From contig NZ_BJDK01000033.1 in the NCBI RefSeq assembly GCF_005405105.1, forward strand, positions 1 through 40,545: 40,545 bases of DNA, written 5' to 3'. Position 1 is the first letter of the stretch; every line of letters begins with the position of its first letter. Below the pieces are notes generated by a model that worked only from the letters and a program-made list of their open reading frames with translations, was not told where the DNA came from and did not search any database. Origin of the DNA: Lactiplantibacillus dongliensis. GTDB lineage: Bacteria; Bacillota; Bacilli; Lactobacillales; Lactobacillaceae. The translations under genes were made by a program, and so were the position numbers. Positions 8,747 through 28,848 of this stretch are shown piece by piece.

Positions 8747-8871
8747 GACGACAAATAATGTCGTTTGGGGGCTAGTAATTTTTGCACGGTAAATTTATAA
8801 TAAACTCATTAGACAGGTATATTAGTTTTGGGGAAAGCTGTTTAATAAAAAATACTTTGGGGGAGAGAATT

Positions 8872-11800
8872 GTGTTAAAGGTAAGTTGTTTTAGAGATAC
8901 TGGTGTTATGTATAATGCTGATAAGAAATGGTTGATGTTGGGTGTGCTTTCGTCAGCGTTAGTGTTTGGCGGGTGGACGTATCAAGCGCAAGCGGCAACG
9001 ACAGTTGGGAAATCTGTGGCAGTAGTCGCAGAAACAGTTAAGCCCGCTGAAGCCACGTCGATGTCAATGGCTGGGACGAGTCAAGTGCTGCCATCAAACC
9101 AACTGGTTCCAGAAGTAGACACGCCGACTAGTGCGACAGCAGTCACTGTGGAGTCAGCTGAATCGGCAACATCCGCGACGAGTGCTGGCGCGTCTGCAGA
9201 TTCGGAACAGTCAATGGCTACATCGGCGGACGACACGATGTCCGCAACCGCCGGGACGCAGGTATCGTCGGCGGTAACTAGTCAGGCGACATCCAGTTCA
9301 AGTGTTGCGGAATCCGCGGCAACTTCGGTAGCACCTACGAAGTCGGTAGTACCAGTTGTAAAAGCGAAAGCGGTGACGCCGGCCGAATCCATTGATGCTT
9401 GGATGCCGAATAAACAGCTACAACAAATCGTGTTAGTTAATTTAGCCGTCGCCTTTCCAGATGAAAACTGGCATCAAGTCAGTGATATCACGAAGGAAAG
9501 TTTGGCAAGATTAACAACGTTTGATACGAATAATTGGACGACGATTGATGGCAAAAAGTGGGAATTTGGTACGCATATTGATGGTCAACAGTCCTTTTCC
9601 TTGGCTGGCTTAGAGTACGCTACCAACCTAACGAATTTGCATTTAGGTAATAATCTTAACTTTAATCCGGGGTCAGTGTATGGGGACATTACCGATATTA
9701 CGCCACTCCAAGGCTTGACCAAGCTAACCGATTTGGGCTTAGAGTTGAACCGGATTAGTGATATTACCCCGATTACGGGACTGACTCAAATCAAGAATCT
9801 AGACATTCGTTATAACCAGATTGTTGATTTATCGACTTTAAAGCTAGGTCAATATGCAGATCTGAAGTATGAAGGCCAAATCATAGAGAATCCAATGGCC
9901 TATATTCCGATTAATCATGAATATACCATGCATAATCCAATTAAAGCGCCTCAAGGGGTAACTTTAGGTAATGTGGAAGCCGGACAATATCATGAGTTTT
10001 TTAATATGGTCGGTTTTACAGCTAAAGGGGAACCAATCTACAAATACTATACGGCTTCTGGTGGCGGTTATACATTGAACGGCGATCAAATCACTTTCCA
10101 TAAAATCGATGATCAAATCTTCCTTGATGGCGATGAAGACGAAGGTGAAACGACCTATCCGCGAAAGTTCTATATGTATTTAGTCGCGACATTTTTTGAT
10201 GCCCATGGCGAAATCGACGAAGATGGTGAGGGGACGCCATTAGTCACTATCTATACACCGTACTATAACTTAGGCGCGCCGGTTACGGTGAACTATGTCG
10301 ATGAAGCTGGGCATGCCATTGCGGATGCTGAGAAATTGAGTGGCGTGATTGATGATGACTATCAGGTGGCCGCTAAAGAATTCGTTGGTTATCAGCTGGT
10401 TGGACCAGATAGTGTTGTGAAAGGGACGTATGGCGAAGACGCCCAAACAATCACCTTCACGTATCGGGCGGTAATGGGCACTTTAACAGTCCGTTATCAA
10501 GATACCGAAGGACGTGAGTTACACCAACCTGATGAGTTTACCGGTCAGGTTGGTCATCAATTTAAGTTAACTGCGCCAGAAATTGCTGGCTATACGTATC
10601 AAGTAGTGCCGGGTCAATTAACGGGCACATATGCGGAACAAACGATGACTGTGATTCTCACGTATCGGCAGAATCCGACTAAAGTTACGATTAATTATGT
10701 GGATGATGATACCAATAAAACGCTGAAAACTGATACATTGAGCGGATTACCAGCCAATACTAGCGATTATCAGATTCAAACGATTGTTCAGCAACAACAT
10801 AAACAAGGTTACCAATTAGTCGGGACGTATCCAACTGGCCAACTCCAATTCGGCAAGAACAATCAAGTTGTGACAATCCACTTTAAACATCAACGGGTGC
10901 AAACGTCGCAACAACATGTCTTTACCCAAACGATTCATTATCGTTATGCCACTGGCAAGCAAGCTGCGGCCGATGTAGTGACGCAACTGACTTTCCAGCG
11001 CCAGGGTCGGCAGGACTTAGTGACGAAGCAAGTGAGTTGGGGCGCCTGGACACCAGCAACTATTAACTTGCCGGCTAAAGTGTCGCCAATGATTGCAGGT
11101 TATCAAGCTGACCAACTTAAAGTGGCGGCGCAGACGGGAATCACGCCAACGACGCGTAATCGTGAATTGACCGTGACTTACCATCCGTTGGCCGTGGGAC
11201 CGATTCGCGTGATTTATCGTGATATGACGGCGGATAAAATCTTACAAACCGTTAATTTAACCGGCAAGTTTGGTAGTACTAGTAATTATCAATTAGCTGC
11301 ACAGCTGGACAAATATAAGCAACAGGGTTATCGCATTGTCAGCAGTACCTATCCAACTAATGATGTCACGTTCGGGACTGAGCCCCAAACGTATTTAGTG
11401 CAACTAGCCCACCGTCACAATTCAGTGACTGACACTAAAACCGTGACGCAAACGATTCATTATACCTATACCAATGGGGCCGTGGCCGCACCGCTGCGGC
11501 AGACCACGTTAAGTTTTCAACGTACCGGACGACAAGATTTGGTCACGGGGAATACAACTTGGCAAGCTTGGACCGGAACTGAAACCACGTTCCCAGCCCA
11601 AGTCTCACCAATGATTAAGGGTTACAAAGCGCAACAGCCGGTCGTGGCGGCTGAAACCGGGATTACTGCCGAGCAAGCGGATCGTGACCTAACCGTTATT
11701 TATATGCCAGTTGATAATGGGTCTGCAGTGACTGATTCAGAAGGTGATCATTTGACGACGGGGACCGATGAACGGCCAGCACATGGCACCCATCGACCAG

Positions 11801-12015
11801 CTGTTAAGCCGACTGCCACCGCACCCATTGAAACGGCAATGGTGGGACAAGGTGACCAGTTACAACCTAGTCAGCCAGTCCTGCGACCGTTAGTCACGCA
11901 TCCAGCATCGCAGCTGCCCCAGACGGATGAGTCTAGGACAGGTCATTGGTTACCACTAATTGGTCTGTGGTTATCAGCGCTAGTCGGTGGCTTTGTGTAT
12001 CGCCGGCGTCATTAA
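8872..12015 (+). CDS. LPXTG surface protein with leucine-rich and MucBP/Mub repeats
   Basis: A 1047-residue wall-anchored protein. It has a long signal peptide of relaxed KxYKxGKxW type (MYNADKKW, then a hydrophobic core ending QAQA), a Ser/Thr/Ala-rich stretch to about 175, a leucine-rich region at about 274-321 (ITPLQGLTKLTDLGLELNRI), MucBP-like repeats at about 470-533, 535-599, 604-673 and 778-848, two Mub-B2-like modules starting TQTIHY at about 685 and 859, and LPQTD at about 1015 with membrane helix and RRRH tail. Such proteins bind mucus or host glycans. GTG 8872 is chosen because GGGGGAG (8859-8865) precedes it; a TTG at 8782 has no such site. MucBP and Mub units alternate as a duplicated pair. 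Single-gene transcript. Confidence 0.88.
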   Translation: MLKVSCFRDTGVMYNADKKWLMLGVLSSALVFGGWTYQAQAATTVGKSVAVVAETVKPAEATSMSMAGTSQVLPSNQLVPEVDTPTSATAVTVESAESATSATSAGASADSEQSMATSADDTMSATAGTQVSSAVTSQATSSSSVAESAATSVAPTKSVVPVVKAKAVTPAESIDAWMPNKQLQQIVLVNLAVAFPDENWHQVSDITKESLARLTTFDTNNWTTIDGKKWEFGTHIDGQQSFSLAGLEYATNLTNLHLGNNLNFNPGSVYGDITDITPLQGLTKLTDLGLELNRISDITPITGLTQIKNLDIRYNQIVDLSTLKLGQYADLKYEGQIIENPMAYIPINHEYTMHNPIKAPQGVTLGNVEAGQYHEFFNMVGFTAKGEPIYKYYTASGGGYTLNGDQITFHKIDDQIFLDGDEDEGETTYPRKFYMYLVATFFDAHGEIDEDGEGTPLVTIYTPYYNLGAPVTVNYVDEAGHAIADAEKLSGVIDDDYQVAAKEFVGYQLVGPDSVVKGTYGEDAQTITFTYRAVMGTLTVRYQDTEGRELHQPDEFTGQVGHQFKLTAPEIAGYTYQVVPGQLTGTYAEQTMTVILTYRQNPTKVTINYVDDDTNKTLKTDTLSGLPANTSDYQIQTIVQQQHKQGYQLVGTYPTGQLQFGKNNQVVTIHFKHQRVQTSQQHVFTQTIHYRYATGKQAAADVVTQLTFQRQGRQDLVTKQVSWGAWTPATINLPAKVSPMIAGYQADQLKVAAQTGITPTTRNRELTVTYHPLAVGPIRVIYRDMTADKILQTVNLTGKFGSTSNYQLAAQLDKYKQQGYRIVSSTYPTNDVTFGTEPQTYLVQLAHRHNSVTDTKTVTQTIHYTYTNGAVAAPLRQTTLSFQRTGRQDLVTGNTTWQAWTGTETTFPAQVSPMIKGYKAQQPVVAAETGITAEQADRDLTVIYMPVDNGSAVTDSEGDHLTTGTDERPAHGTHRPAVKPTATAPIETAMVGQGDQLQPSQPVLRPLVTHPASQLPQTDESRTGHWLPLIGLWLSALVGGFVYRRRH

Positions 12016-19661: not shown

Positions 19662-19700
19662 CATGTTGGTTTTTGCGCCCATGCTATGGCTTTAGATACG

Positions 19701-19864
19701 TTTGGAACTAGTTTGATTAAGTTGTCACTCTGGTTGGGTCAGCATCGGCTGGAACGTGGTGGCCACGTTTATGAGCCGAAGGGCGGTCTCATAAGCCGGG
19801 CTTTGACTAAGCCGAGCAGGTCACTCAGCTAAGTCAAACGACACCACTGAGCCAATGCTGACCC
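19701..19864 (+). repeat. Structured intergenic element, copy 1
   Basis: The stretch starts with TTTGGAACTAGTT (19701-19713) and folds into a multi-branched structure: outer stem GGGTCAGCAT (19736-19745) with ATGCTGACCC (19855-19864), second helix GTGGTG with CACCAC, and inner hairpins TTATGAG (19769-19775) with CTCATAA (19788-19794) and TTTGACT (19802-19808) with AGTCAAA (19832-19838). Constant single-stranded blocks such as GCTGGAACG and AACGACAC recur in copy 2. It lies 39 bases after the LacI-type gene, and read-through would transcribe it in this sense. No open frame is present. A folded non-coding RNA or palindromic repeat unit is likely. Confidence 0.7.
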
Positions 19865-19922
19865 GCCCGGCGTTAATTGATCGGTAAGTTATTAACCGTT
19901 TGAGCTGCCGTTTTAGCCGAGA

Positions 19923-20089
19923 GGTTGGGTTCTAAAATGCTCAGCCGTGTCGTTGGCCTTAGTGCGAGTGGTTTGCTCGGACTTAGGCCAAGGTCAGTTT
20001 TGAAGACCGGGCTTTGGCTTCAAAATGGCCCATGGCGTTCCAGCATTTTAGAACCCAACCGGTAGGCGGCATGCTTAACTAGTTCCAAC
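19923..20089 (-). repeat. Structured intergenic element, copy 2 (inverted)
   Basis: Read on the - strand, this has the same plan as copy 1: TTGGAACTAGTT (20088-20077), a perfect 19-base outer stem (19923-19941 with 20042-20060), hairpins TTTTGAAG with CTTCAAAA (19998-20005, 20018-20025) and TTGGCCT with AGGCCAA (19953-19959, 19985-19991), and the constant blocks GCTGGAACG and AACGACAC. The arms differ from copy 1 but stay complementary. The two copies converge, 58 bases apart, so the pair looks like a large inverted repeat with TTGGAACTAGTT at both outer ends. Confidence 0.7.
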
Positions 20090-20105
20090 TGAATTTAGAT
20101 AGATA

Positions 20106-21472: not shown

Positions 21473-21890
21473 ATTTTATGAAATTTTTTTGATTTATTTA
21501 TCAGTTTAAATTAATTTAATGGCTCAACTAATAGCGAAAGTTTTAACTTAACTTTTGAGAAAACGTCAGTATAAATAAAGTTAATGATGAAAATAGTTGG
21601 TTCGTTTAAAAAAGAGTGTTGGTTGGTTTCGAACGAACAATCGGCAATAAGTAATAGTTATAGTGTGATTAATGAAAATTTTGGTGGCCAGCTTACTAAT
21701 AACCAACCTTTACCAGCTAAAAAACACGTGAAAAAGAATAAGAATGGCTATGTATCAGCGTTTATCAGCTTAATAGCTAGTTGAATTGTACACGTTGAGG
21801 GGGTACACTATCAGTGTTGATAAATATTTAAGTGGATAAAAATAAATAATGCATATCGAGTTAAGGTCATCAATAAAGGGGATAGTGCAC
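21473..21890 (+). other. Long leader / upstream region of the BspA-repeat protein
   Basis: This AT-rich stretch contains a TATAAAT sequence at about 21572-21578 but no convincing -35 box. A 66-codon frame at 21584-21784 lacks a ribosome binding site and any family likeness and is not accepted as a gene. Two GTACAC direct repeats lie near 21788 and 21804. Confidence 0.35.
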
Positions 21891-24800
21891 ATGAGTACGA
21901 AGCTGAACACTACGGCGGCAATGAGTGGCAAAGAACATTATAAGATGTATAAAAAGGGCCGGGTTTGGCTGTTTGCGGGAGTGCTTGCGCTGACGGTTTG
22001 GCAAGGGAGTGCCATGGCACAGGCCGATACAACCACGGAATCAACCGCAAGTTCTGACAGTAGTTCATTGGCCACAGGAACTAGCGGTTCAACGGATAAG
22101 ACCGTTACGCTGGCTGGCGGTAGTACTGAGACTAAGTCTAATGACCAAACGAAGCCAACGGTAACGGCTACAACCACCGCTGACGACACAAAAACCACCG
22201 CTTCATCGGCCTCGGATACTGATGATCAAACTAAAGCTGTAGCGGTCGACACGCCCAGTCAGACGGTGCCTTCTAAGGATGCACCAACCAAGCAGGCCAG
22301 CCAAGGCAATGAAAGCGGTTCAAATGACGCTACTGATTCACAAGTAACTGAGGAATCAAAGCCAACCCCCAAAACGGATTCAACGGTGCCAGCACCAAAG
22401 CCGACGACTGACACGACTAATCAGACGACTGATCCAACAACGACGACTGAAACTACCCCGGCTACGACGGTGACTGAACCAGCGACCACTGACGATCCGG
22501 TTACTGTTGATAAGTTAGTTGACGATCCGGCTGTTGATGTTAAGACGCTGTCACTAACTGACTCAAAAATAGCAACTAGTACTGGTTTTAATCGGGCTAA
22601 CTTAATGCGGCTGGCAGTTGCACCAGCAGTTACAAGTACAGATCTTGGTAGTGGGACATTTGGGACCAGTAACTGGCGGATTGATGCAGACGGGGTGTTA
22701 CATATTGGCGCTGGGACGTTTAATAATTTTGCTGGTACCTGGTCGAAGTACGGAACATTAATTAAAACGATTACGTTCGATGGTAAAGTTACGGCCGCAT
22801 CAGATTCAAGCCAAGTCTTTTGCGGGTTAAAGAACCTAACGACGATTACTAACCCCGAAATGTTTGACACGAGTTCTGCAACCCGAATGGTCAGCACGTT
22901 TGCTAATGATTCTAGTCTGACCAGCTTGAACTTGAATAGTTGGGATATGAGTAATGTCACGGATATTGGCTCAATGTTTGAATGGGATACCAGTCTAGCT
23001 GATTTACAAATTAGTGATTGGAATACTGGTAAAATTGAATCGATGAAATTCACCTTTTTTGTGGCGAATAGCTTAACCAGTCTGGATTTGAATAAATGGG
23101 ATACGCACAGCTTGAAGTCACTTTATGAAGCGTTTGGTACTGAAAATGGCTACCAAAGTCATTTGCAAGACTTGGAAATCAGTAATTGGAATACGAGTAG
23201 TTTAACGACCATGTATTATGCTTTTGCTCAGGCTGAAAAGTTAACTAGTCTGGATCTAAATGGCTGGGATACGAGTCATGTTACTGATATGTCCGCAGCC
23301 TTTATGGGCGACTATGCTTTAACAACGCTCAATGCCAGCAGCTGGGACACGAGCAAGGTTACCTCGATGTACTACATGTTCATGGGTGATAAAAATTTGA
23401 CTACGCTTGATCCAAGCGGCTGGAAAACTGGCAATGTTGTTCAAATGTACAATATTTTTAATGGTGTTGGGTTAACCAGTCTTGATCTGAGTGGTTGGGA
23501 TGTTAGCAAGGTCCAACGGTTTGATCTGATCTTCTCCGGTGATGATCAACTGACATCGTTGAACGTTGCTGGTTGGGATGTTAGCAATGCAACCAGTACC
23601 ATTGATACCTTTGCTTACTTAACGAAATTAACCTCTTTAGACTTAACTGGATGGACATTGAGTAGTGATACCAAGGCTTGGAATATGTTTATCAAGGATA
23701 CCAATTTAGAAGTAATTAAAATGCCAGACATGGATTTGCCGGTTTTGCAGTCTGCAAGTGGGATGTTTGCTAGTGATTCGAAATTGAAAACGATTGAGGG
23801 TCCATCTTGGCATTTGAACAATTTAGTTGATGGCTATTGTATGTTTAGTGATAATAATGCCTTGACTACTTTAGATACCACTAACTGGAATTTAAGTAAA
23901 TTAGCTAATGCTAGTTATATGTTTTGGAATGACTTTGCTTTGAATAACATTGATACGAGCAATTGGAATTTAAATCAGGTTATTAATGGGTTTGGCATGT
24001 TTGCCTATAATTATGCCTTAAGCAACTTAGCTACAGCTAGTTGGGGCTTGAGCAGCTTAACCGATGCTCAGCAGATGTTTATGGAAGATGGCAAATTAGA
24101 TGGACTAGATACAAGTAATTGGGACCTGAATAAGTTAACAACAGCCTTTAATATGTTCTATAATGCCAGCAGTTTGACCAAGTTGGATACGGCTAACTGG
24201 GGGCTAAGTAGTTTAACAACTGCTACCCAGATGTTCTTTGGCATGTCAGCCTTAACCGCTTTGGATACGACCGACTGGGATGTCAGTCAGGTGACTAATG
24301 CGCAAAATATGTTTTATGGCGACACCGCTTTAGCGCAATTAGACGTTTCTAAGTGGAATACTGGCAATCTACAAAATGCCGCCTACATGTTCTACCAAGA
24401 CGCGGCTTTGACGGCGATTGCGGTCGATAATTGGGATACACACAGCCTGACCGATGCACGCGGGACCTTTAACCAAATGTTGACTTTGAAGGCGATTGAT
24501 CTTTCTAAATGGGATACGAGCAAGATTACATTATTAACTGGCTTGTTCAATCGTGACTATGACTTAGCCTCAATTAATTTGAGCAATTGGGATACGAGCA
24601 AAGTCACGGCCATGCGGAATATGTTCTTTGATACGACTAATTTAACGGATTTGGATTTATCAAATCTTGATATGACGGCCTTGAATCCTTTTGATACGTT
24701 GCTTAAAGGTTCCGGTGTTAAAACTTTAACCTTGGGTACCAAGACAGTGCTCGCCAAAGATGGTAAGACTGCTGAAATTCCCGACGTACCAACCACTGAT

Positions 24801-26453
24801 GGCTACCTCGGTCACTGGATCAACACGGAAGGCCAATTATTCACTTCTGCTGAATTGATGGCGTTATACAACGGTACTGATACGGCCGTAGCTGATACTT
24901 ATACGTGGCAAGTTGACAAGACCACGTTGGCGGTTCATGACACCACGGTTGACCAAACGCACCACGCAACTTGGACGGCCGCAGATAACTTTACCAGTGC
25001 GACTGATGAGCTGGGTCAAGCAATTACGGTGGCAGATGTCACTGTTGATAGCGATGTTGATTTAACTAAACCGGGTAAGTATACCGTCACTTATAAGGCG
25101 GCTAATGGGTCAACGGCGACCGCGACGGTTATAGTTGCGCCGAGTCAGATGAAGTTAGACGTGCAAGGTGTAACGGTAACTAAAGGTGCTAAGTGGACGG
25201 CGGCTGACAATTTCGTCAGTGCGACTGATGCTACTGGTCAACCAGTGCCGCTGAGTGATGTCACGGTCACTGGCGCCGACCAAGTGGATACGAGTCAAGC
25301 CGGCAAGACTTATCAAGTCACTTACAGTTACACTGATGCCAACGGGAATCCGTTAAGCAAGAAGGTAACGGTCACGATTGCAGCTAGCCAAGTGAGTGTT
25401 AAAGCACACGATGTTCAGCTAACGCAAGGCCAAGTATGGAATACTATGGCTGGTTTAGATGACGCGACGGATGCTAACGGCAATGTGGTGGCACTCGATG
25501 ATGTCGCGGTGACTGGTGATGTCGATACGCAGACGCCAGGTCACTATCAAGTGACGTATACCATGACCGATGCTTATCAAAATACCGCCACAGCGACGGT
25601 CACGGTGACGGTGGCTGCTACGGCAGCGAGTGTTGACGTTAAAGACAGTACGTTAACGCAAGGTGATCAATGGACCGCCGCGGATAGTTTTGTCAGTGCC
25701 ACGGATGCGGCTGGTCAAGCACTGGGCTTGGATGCGTTGACCGTGACCGATGCTGATAAAGTTAATGTTGCGGTACCAGGGACTTATGCGGTCACTTATC
25801 GCTATACAGATGAATACGGCAACGTCATTACTAAGACGATTACCGTGACCGTCCAAGCAAAAGCTGTAGTGACTAAGCCCGACGATCATAATGGTGGCAC
25901 GACTGGTACGACCACGACACCCGCTACGGATACTAATGGCGGTGCAGGTACTAGTACGACGCCAATCACTCCGGATACTGATTCAAGTGCTGGAGCAACG
26001 ATTAATCCCAACCTTGATCCGAATGAGGTTACCCCAACACCGGCGGTACCAGTTGTTTCAACCCCAACGGATGCTGGGCAAGCTGATAGGATTGATCCCG
26101 GGATGGCGCTGACCAATGCAGTAAAACCAGCGGCTGCTAAAACGGCTACCAAAGCCGCAACTAGTGCGACTTGGGATGGTGATCATATCAATGCGCAACC
26201 AGCTAAGTCAGCGGTTCAACCAACCAACTTAGCGGTGGCTAAAGTTCAAGCACAACCGGCTACTATGACAATTGCAACGGCTAACGCGACCTTAAAGGCT
26301 GGAACCACAGCGCAACCAGCTGCTAAATCAGCCACAAGGTTGCCGCAGACGGAAGAAGTGACGCCGACACCAACGACCTTGATGGGATTGATGTTATTAG
26401 GATTGAGCGGTGTGGTGGCCAGTCTTGGAAAAGCACGGCGCCAAGATAAGTAA
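21891..26453 (+). CDS. Giant LPXTG surface protein with BspA-type leucine-rich repeats and Ig-like domains
   Basis: A 1520-residue wall-anchored protein: KxYKxGKxW signal (HYKMYKKGRVW near 16-26), a Thr/Ser/Asp-rich region to about 240, about 25 DUF285/BspA-type repeats between roughly 310 and 935 (each about 24 residues with LTSLDLNGWDTSHVTDMSAA-like sequence), four Ig-like domains at about 1003-1083, 1084-1164, 1166-1244 and 1244-1325, a repeat-poor linker, and LPQTE at about 1484 with helix and basic tail. Proteins of this kind act in adhesion. ATG 21891 follows AAGGGGA (21877-21883); an ATG at 21849 has no such site. The repeats drift from WDTS to WNLN or WGLS forms in the middle, showing internal duplications. 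Single-gene transcript. Confidence 0.9.
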   Translation: MSTKLNTTAAMSGKEHYKMYKKGRVWLFAGVLALTVWQGSAMAQADTTTESTASSDSSSLATGTSGSTDKTVTLAGGSTETKSNDQTKPTVTATTTADDTKTTASSASDTDDQTKAVAVDTPSQTVPSKDAPTKQASQGNESGSNDATDSQVTEESKPTPKTDSTVPAPKPTTDTTNQTTDPTTTTETTPATTVTEPATTDDPVTVDKLVDDPAVDVKTLSLTDSKIATSTGFNRANLMRLAVAPAVTSTDLGSGTFGTSNWRIDADGVLHIGAGTFNNFAGTWSKYGTLIKTITFDGKVTAASDSSQVFCGLKNLTTITNPEMFDTSSATRMVSTFANDSSLTSLNLNSWDMSNVTDIGSMFEWDTSLADLQISDWNTGKIESMKFTFFVANSLTSLDLNKWDTHSLKSLYEAFGTENGYQSHLQDLEISNWNTSSLTTMYYAFAQAEKLTSLDLNGWDTSHVTDMSAAFMGDYALTTLNASSWDTSKVTSMYYMFMGDKNLTTLDPSGWKTGNVVQMYNIFNGVGLTSLDLSGWDVSKVQRFDLIFSGDDQLTSLNVAGWDVSNATSTIDTFAYLTKLTSLDLTGWTLSSDTKAWNMFIKDTNLEVIKMPDMDLPVLQSASGMFASDSKLKTIEGPSWHLNNLVDGYCMFSDNNALTTLDTTNWNLSKLANASYMFWNDFALNNIDTSNWNLNQVINGFGMFAYNYALSNLATASWGLSSLTDAQQMFMEDGKLDGLDTSNWDLNKLTTAFNMFYNASSLTKLDTANWGLSSLTTATQMFFGMSALTALDTTDWDVSQVTNAQNMFYGDTALAQLDVSKWNTGNLQNAAYMFYQDAALTAIAVDNWDTHSLTDARGTFNQMLTLKAIDLSKWDTSKITLLTGLFNRDYDLASINLSNWDTSKVTAMRNMFFDTTNLTDLDLSNLDMTALNPFDTLLKGSGVKTLTLGTKTVLAKDGKTAEIPDVPTTDGYLGHWINTEGQLFTSAELMALYNGTDTAVADTYTWQVDKTTLAVHDTTVDQTHHATWTAADNFTSATDELGQAITVADVTVDSDVDLTKPGKYTVTYKAANGSTATATVIVAPSQMKLDVQGVTVTKGAKWTAADNFVSATDATGQPVPLSDVTVTGADQVDTSQAGKTYQVTYSYTDANGNPLSKKVTVTIAASQVSVKAHDVQLTQGQVWNTMAGLDDATDANGNVVALDDVAVTGDVDTQTPGHYQVTYTMTDAYQNTATATVTVTVAATAASVDVKDSTLTQGDQWTAADSFVSATDAAGQALGLDALTVTDADKVNVAVPGTYAVTYRYTDEYGNVITKTITVTVQAKAVVTKPDDHNGGTTGTTTTPATDTNGGAGTSTTPITPDTDSSAGATINPNLDPNEVTPTPAVPVVSTPTDAGQADRIDPGMALTNAVKPAAAKTATKAATSATWDGDHINAQPAKSAVQPTNLAVAKVQAQPATMTIATANATLKAGTTAQPAAKSATRLPQTEEVTPTPTTLMGLMLLGLSGVVASLGKARRQDK

Positions 26454-28557: not shown

Positions 28558-28603
28558 CAGTATCAACTTTTTATTTTCCATGATACCAATTAGTATCGGT
28601 ATG

Positions 28604-28672
28604 CTTGGTTCTAGTCGGATTAAAATGTCATTCTGGTTGGCCCAGTATCGGCTGGACGGCGGGTTACTGTTT
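28604..28672 (+). repeat. Truncated third copy of the structured element
   Basis: About 65 bases align with the 5' part of copy 1 (19700-19757): CTTGG..CTAGT, ATTAA..TGTCA, TCTGGTTGG and CAGTATCGGCTGGA are shared in the same order and nearly the same spacing. The inner hairpins and 3' arm are missing, so the copy is incomplete or decayed. Confidence 0.5.
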
Positions 28673-28848
28673 TTCATGAACTAGACCACCGTAGCAATCA
28701 TAGTATCCCGGCAATAATGGTACTAGAGCATGAGTTTTACCAGTGCTGAATACAAGGCGAACAGGTAAAAAGGTTAAAAGACTTATTCCCAATATCAGGT
28801 TATGGGGGGCAATGAAGTAACACGGCACATGAATGCTATCAATAGTTG

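Follow-up and report, generated by a model that had tools for sequence, protein, structure and literature searches.

MITEs carry the inverted repeats of a parent IS, are flanked by a short target duplication, hold no gene and occur in many copies, and REP/BIME sequences are intergenic palindromic units that stand as inverted pairs in BIMEs. A paper on Cardinium MITEs names IS982 in its abstract (PMC9769881). PMC3446304 and PMC3733652 describe bcr1-bcr18 of the Bacillus cereus group as intergenic repeats, with bcr1-bcr3 being MITE-like and bcr10 and bcr18 having a conserved secondary structure, and PMC3733652 also treats the REP/BIME palindromic repeats. Two further papers cover the BOX/RUP repeats of Streptococcus pneumoniae (PMC3049150) and list the repeat family Lac-1 of Lactobacillus johnsonii (PMC2267715). 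In the open-licence literature on lactobacilli repeats, MITEs, IS982 and non-coding RNAs, we found no description of the element reported here, and one may exist elsewhere.

The element in the window

We analyzed a stretch of 40,545 nucleotides from Lactiplantibacillus dongliensis (the window, meaning this whole stretch), for which a preliminary description had pointed out an inverted pair of copies between a LacI-type and a LysM gene. The positions, strands and ordered constant blocks given there for copy A (+ strand) and copy B (− strand) are confirmed in the sequence. The limits of the unit were corrected: the pair forms one 395-bp element, positions 19699 to 20093, with TTTAGATA on either side, and the TTGGAACTAGTT block that the copies share is a terminal inverted repeat lying outside the folded module. 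The element, to which no strand is assigned, is bounded by inverted and direct repeats and is a probable IS982-type MITE. The left (19691 to 19698) and right (20094 to 20101) occurrences of TTTAGATA, likewise unstranded, are probable target-site duplications, this 8-bp direct repeat being our own reading of the border sequences, joined for the left copy by the family statistics given below. The left terminal inverted repeat, TTGGAACTAGTT, occupies positions 19702 to 19713 on the + strand, and its family consensus, CGCTTGGTGCTAGTTG, matches an IS982 end; the right one was placed by border reading at 20077 to 20088 on the − strand and reads AACTAGTTCCAA on the + strand. Both ends of the window copy share the variant TTGGAACTAGTT, which has diverged from the family TTGGTGCTAGTT. 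No open reading frame of at least 80 amino acids is listed within 19699 to 20093, that is, no transposase gene.

Between these ends lie two structured modules, which we scored with R1, a covariance model of the hairpin module with 153 positions and 45 pairs. Module A spans 19725 to 19877 on the + strand (158.2 bits) and module B, which has the same architecture with other helix sequences, spans 19914 to 20067 on the − strand (142.2 bits). Each consists of an outer stem, a conserved CTGGAACG/CTGAGC internal loop, an inner stem and two hairpin branches, and their single-strand folds, compared with dinucleotide shuffles, gave z-scores of −5.4 for A and −5.7 for B. Elsewhere in the window, positions 28601 to 28680 hold an apparent truncated left end of another family element (TATGCTTGGTTCTAGTCGG plus the first part of the module). 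The window also encodes two large proteins. One (21849 to 26453) has, within its first 1000 residues, eight DUF285 stretches and a KxYKxGKxW signal; in the other (8782 to 12015), the first 999 residues include the mucin-binding domains MucBP and Muc_B2.

Copy number, convergent build and IS982-type ends

The L. dongliensis genome contains at least 150 modules: all 150 candidates scored, of 1,453 returned by R1, match with at least 118 bits. DNA searches with the two arms gave 43 and 41 matches, and all of these copy counts are floors set by the number of candidates scored (150 for the model, 40 for each DNA search). A scan of the window together with 60 further stretches of this genome gave 117 modules with E-values no worse than 1e-11. 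When modules lay less than 900 bp apart, 47 of the 52 neighboring pairs were convergent, four tandem and one divergent, with a gap of 30 to 50 bp in 42 of the 47 convergent pairs; this count leaves out five loci as repeats, one of which (L170) is not a repeat. Similarly, 34 of 37 neighboring modules in other genomes were convergent and three were tandem. Modules for which no neighbor was found numbered 17 of 117 in L. dongliensis and 31 of 103 elsewhere. The predominance of convergent neighbors indicates that the usual unit is A> <B, so the side-by-side inverted copies that the preliminary description had considered unusual are in fact the element's usual build.

Forty-one composites of this build were aligned from the L. 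dongliensis genome; they start with TACGCTTGGTGCTAGTTG and finish with its complement. Among the 42 elements with both neighboring genes called, one sits inside an open reading frame and no clear preference for gene ends was seen. A crude open-reading-frame caller placed 21 of 43 elements between co-directional genes, 13 between convergent genes, eight between divergent genes and one at an edge, compared with 23 co-directional, four convergent and three divergent background gaps. At three places on two contigs of this genome (C3:1381-1541, C3:38592-38847 and C43:173-438) there are shortened elements that keep their ends and have module parts fused or missing; these are apparently internal deletion products.

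The ends of the family suggest transposition by an IS982-family enzyme. An 18-bp end pattern matched the genome 160 times with up to two mismatches, compared with one match for the reversed control. Of 30 end pairs, 15 were flanked by perfect direct repeats no shorter than 7 bp (shuffled partners, 0.03) and 10 by ones no shorter than 8 bp (shuffled partners, 0); the other 15 had no perfect 7-bp direct repeat. The duplication lengths are read as 7 to 12 bp, a spread due in part to an ambiguous TA at the ends. A search among DDE_Tnp_1 genes of four genomes yielded, in the genome of a sister species (G013), a 960-bp IS whose two ends both agree with the family consensus over 18 of 18 bp and which is bordered, in our reading, by an 8-bp direct repeat. 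Its protein belongs to the IS982 family (NF033520, E 6.5e-65, 219 bits against a cut-off of 130). Moreover, four L. dongliensis contigs (C16, C31, C46 and C59) end 77 to 78 bp into this IS, with 97 to 100% identity. Such breaks are what one would expect if the assembly failed to span an IS present in multiple copies, and L. dongliensis thus probably has several near-identical, unassembled copies. Other IS982 copies of this species (L279, L296) end in TACGCGTTGTGCTAG, and the same sequence with one base changed ends the plasmid-borne version of the element from L. plantarum. That version matched 26 plasmids, while the window version had no match among plasmid records and neither version had one among phage records.

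From the direct repeats, the common 18-bp end and the contigs that break inside the IS, the element is most likely an IS982-mobilized MITE. The preliminary description had named a match to a known transposon end as a result that would speak against its reading, and the family's outer ends do match one. We put the probability at about three in four that the window pair is one non-autonomous mobile element with IS982-type ends and two convergent older modules. Judged from the matching ends, the IS transposase probably moves the element. The DDE transposase of an IS982-family IS would most likely cut at the outer ends, and insertion would give a target duplication of ∼8 to 9 bp in mostly intergenic DNA. 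Inside the ends, the hairpin module of ∼150 nt, which is older and foreign to the IS, is present twice in convergent orientation.

Covariation and the level at which the module folds

The preliminary description had also remarked on arms that differ between the copies yet remain complementary. Indeed, over the 45-pair consensus, copies A and B have 26 identical pairs, one pair with a one-sided change, 17 pairs that are changed on both sides and still paired, and one that is unpaired, and when the partners were slid by 1 to 6 columns in either direction, 0 to 1 double changes stayed paired. The covariation statistics that it had proposed were computed on larger sets. Alignment A2 comprises modules from L. 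dongliensis itself and A3 comprises 104 distinct sequences from other genomes; both were found and aligned with R1, a model biased towards its own structure, and their counts are not independent events because the copies share kinship. With this bias, 96.1% of the cells in A3 pair (68.0% in shuffles, at most 49.8% when slid), 1,281 cells are double-changed (333.5 in shuffles) and the covariation score is 0.697 (0.167 shuffled, at most 0.103 slid). Among the five measures, the count of further pair types showed no excess (117 vs 114.4 in shuffles). Double-sided changes occur at every pair in four of the six helices.

Unpaired conserved blocks sit between the helices. Two of them, CTGGAACG and CTGAGC, served as search seeds, and in the relatives of alignment A1 (which drew on 10 of the 61 sources from L. 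dongliensis itself, with one false pick and one duplicate removed) their invariance arises by construction, because the picking pattern demanded both.

We compared the module with small SRP RNA of the same family (n = 29; 30 of 61 matches fetched and one excluded for length), in which G.T pairs outnumber A.C pairs by 115 to 6, or by 86 to 6 without one constant pair. For the module, the ratio of G.T to A.C over all columns was 234 to 77 in A2 and 154 to 105 in A3. Leaving out one junction column that is constantly G.T (115 cells in A2 and 100 in A3) gave 119 to 77 and 54 to 105, and leaving out a second G.T-rich column as well (69 and 22 G.T; 0 and 5 A.C) gave 50 to 77 and 32 to 100, or 46 to 58 and 31 to 64 when counted as cluster events. 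Hence, leaving out a single column decides the balance in the L. dongliensis copies, and the A3 counts tilt toward the opposite strand. Wobble pairs without the constant junction column make up ∼1 to 2% of cells, compared with 14.7% in SRP RNA. The two strands of the module also folded alike relative to dinucleotide shuffles (z −6.6 and −6.8 in one set, −7.5 and −7.7 in the other, 25 sequences per set), whereas those of SRP RNA differed (z −2.5 and −1.7; 24/29).

A further observation comes from two near-identical L. plantarum plasmids, L243 (NZ_AP028149.1) and L276 (NZ_CP121258.1), which are 97 to 99.9% identical over the aligned pieces. They differ by the loss of one hairpin, through a deletion bounded by an 8-bp repeat, GTCAGCCG, at the hairpin foot; there is also a second internal deletion. 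Slippage during replication causes such losses at DNA hairpins, and we regard the differences as natural snapshots of element decay.

Given the small G.T excess, the absence of a strand preference and the hairpin-linked plasmid deletion, we read the pairing as a property at the DNA level, and a folded-DNA role of the arms is favored, though unproven. We infer that the module matters as folded DNA and not as RNA; it would act either as an extruded cruciform or as a hairpin that forms when the DNA is single-stranded during replication or transposition. Of the two possibilities in the preliminary description, a repeat kept for its secondary structure therefore fits, and a folded RNA is not favored. 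A fuller version, which we offer tentatively and below even odds, is that the module is a ∼150-nt branched folded-DNA element, conserved across the bacterial family, whose shape as a cruciform or in single-stranded DNA is under selection. A cellular or transposon protein would recognize this folded form, and the module would later have been captured between IS982 ends in Lactiplantibacillus.

Alternatively, the pairing could be a by-product of template switching at hairpins during replication, which would copy one arm to the other without any selection on structure. Two-sided changes do greatly exceed one-sided ones, the Watson-Crick pairing is nearly pure and the plasmid deletion is linked to a hairpin, all of which would be in line with such copying; by itself, however, it does not explain unpaired blocks that are conserved across genera, even if CTGGAACG and CTGAGC are partly conserved by construction. 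We consider this explanation rather unlikely. The conserved loops are better explained by selection on folded DNA, and the scarce one-sided changes by arm-to-arm template switching.

An RNA reading is unlikely; in it, the module would be a functional non-coding transcript, perhaps of the opposite strand, and would either travel with the mobile element or serve it. The strong covariation and fixed internal-loop sequences across 14 genera would suit an RNA, as would the preponderance of A.C over G.T in the A3 cluster events, since an A.C mismatch reads as G.U on the opposite strand. Among sequences longer than 140 nt (115 of 117 in A2, 101 of 104 in A3), that strand also has the lower raw free energy in 92 and 87 cases, respectively, but this gap disappears against dinucleotide shuffles. 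The wobble fraction is far from that of SRP RNA, and the 42 elements with called neighbors show no clear preference for gene ends. Nor did any named family emerge, as the preliminary description had anticipated: with 0 Rfam matches at the gathering score in the window and in the loci of 20 relatives, a known RNA family was rejected, and at a relaxed threshold there were far sub-threshold hits only, among which MIR5638 scored highest over the pair (E 0.0021, 20.1 bits vs a gathering score of 500).

Spread in Lactobacillaceae and comparison with known repeats

The covariance-model search of Lactobacillaceae suggested at the outset found R1 matches in 72 of 251 genomes and 14 of 40 genera. None lay outside the family in a 295-genome sample of the order, where all 11 positives belong to Lactobacillaceae. 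IS982 was above its cut-off in 24 of the 251 genomes, including 11 of the 72 that bear the module (our own count from the lists), and with only these 11 it fails to explain the module's spread. Inverted ends that beat shuffles were found for 11 of 20 module pairs within the genus vs 0 of 11 outside it, three of the latter (L209, L213, L216) being assumed to lie outside; in seven pairs of genome G005, the inverted repeat found differs from the IS982 end. The module is older than the IS982 ends. At one locus of another genus, a module follows a terminator in one genome (G190) and is absent from another (G299), with a junction that is not clean. In L. daowaiensis, whose LacI protein is 89% identical to the one flanking the window element, the gap between the LacI and LysM genes lacks the module and is too diverged for the junction to be read.

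That the element is of the REP/BIME kind and is mobilized by a RAYT-type transposase of the Y1 (HUH) class is very improbable: intergenic inverted hairpin pairs are BIME-like and Y1 matches co-occur weakly with the module (odds ratio 2.5, p 0.002; 32 of 72 genomes with the module vs 43 of the 179 without), but the direct repeats and inverted ends are DDE-type and there are 0 Y1 matches in L. dongliensis, G005 and G013, all of which bear the module. For the L. dongliensis genome this disfavors a RAYT/HUH mobilizer, and 40 of the 72 module genomes have no Y1 match.

A high-copy, strongly covarying module is thus present in 14 of the 40 genera sampled, with no counterpart in Rfam or in the literature searched. 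In our judgment, covariation alone cannot separate RNA structure, DNA structure and arm-to-arm copying, and the module is a natural test case for the three, because its covariation is as strong as that of a real RNA, yet the wobble and strand signature of the SRP type is largely missing. The IS partner in the same genus makes the mobility of the element directly testable.

Among the known systems, the bcr repeats belong to another host group, and the modules described here come in pairs, extend across a family and are DNA-like in their base pairing. The BOX/RUP repeats are, like the present element, small and interspersed in a Lactobacillales genome; within the order sample, however, R1 matched Lactobacillaceae alone. 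Compared with REP/BIME sequences, the module is a branched structure of ∼150 nt (REP, 20 to 40 bp), the ends are DDE-type and the genome has no Y1 match. There is a further resemblance to MITEs with IS982-family ends, which share with the element the IS982-family inverted repeats, a short target duplication, the lack of a gene and many copies, and from which it differs in its interior of two convergent branched modules that are found elsewhere without detectable IS982 ends.
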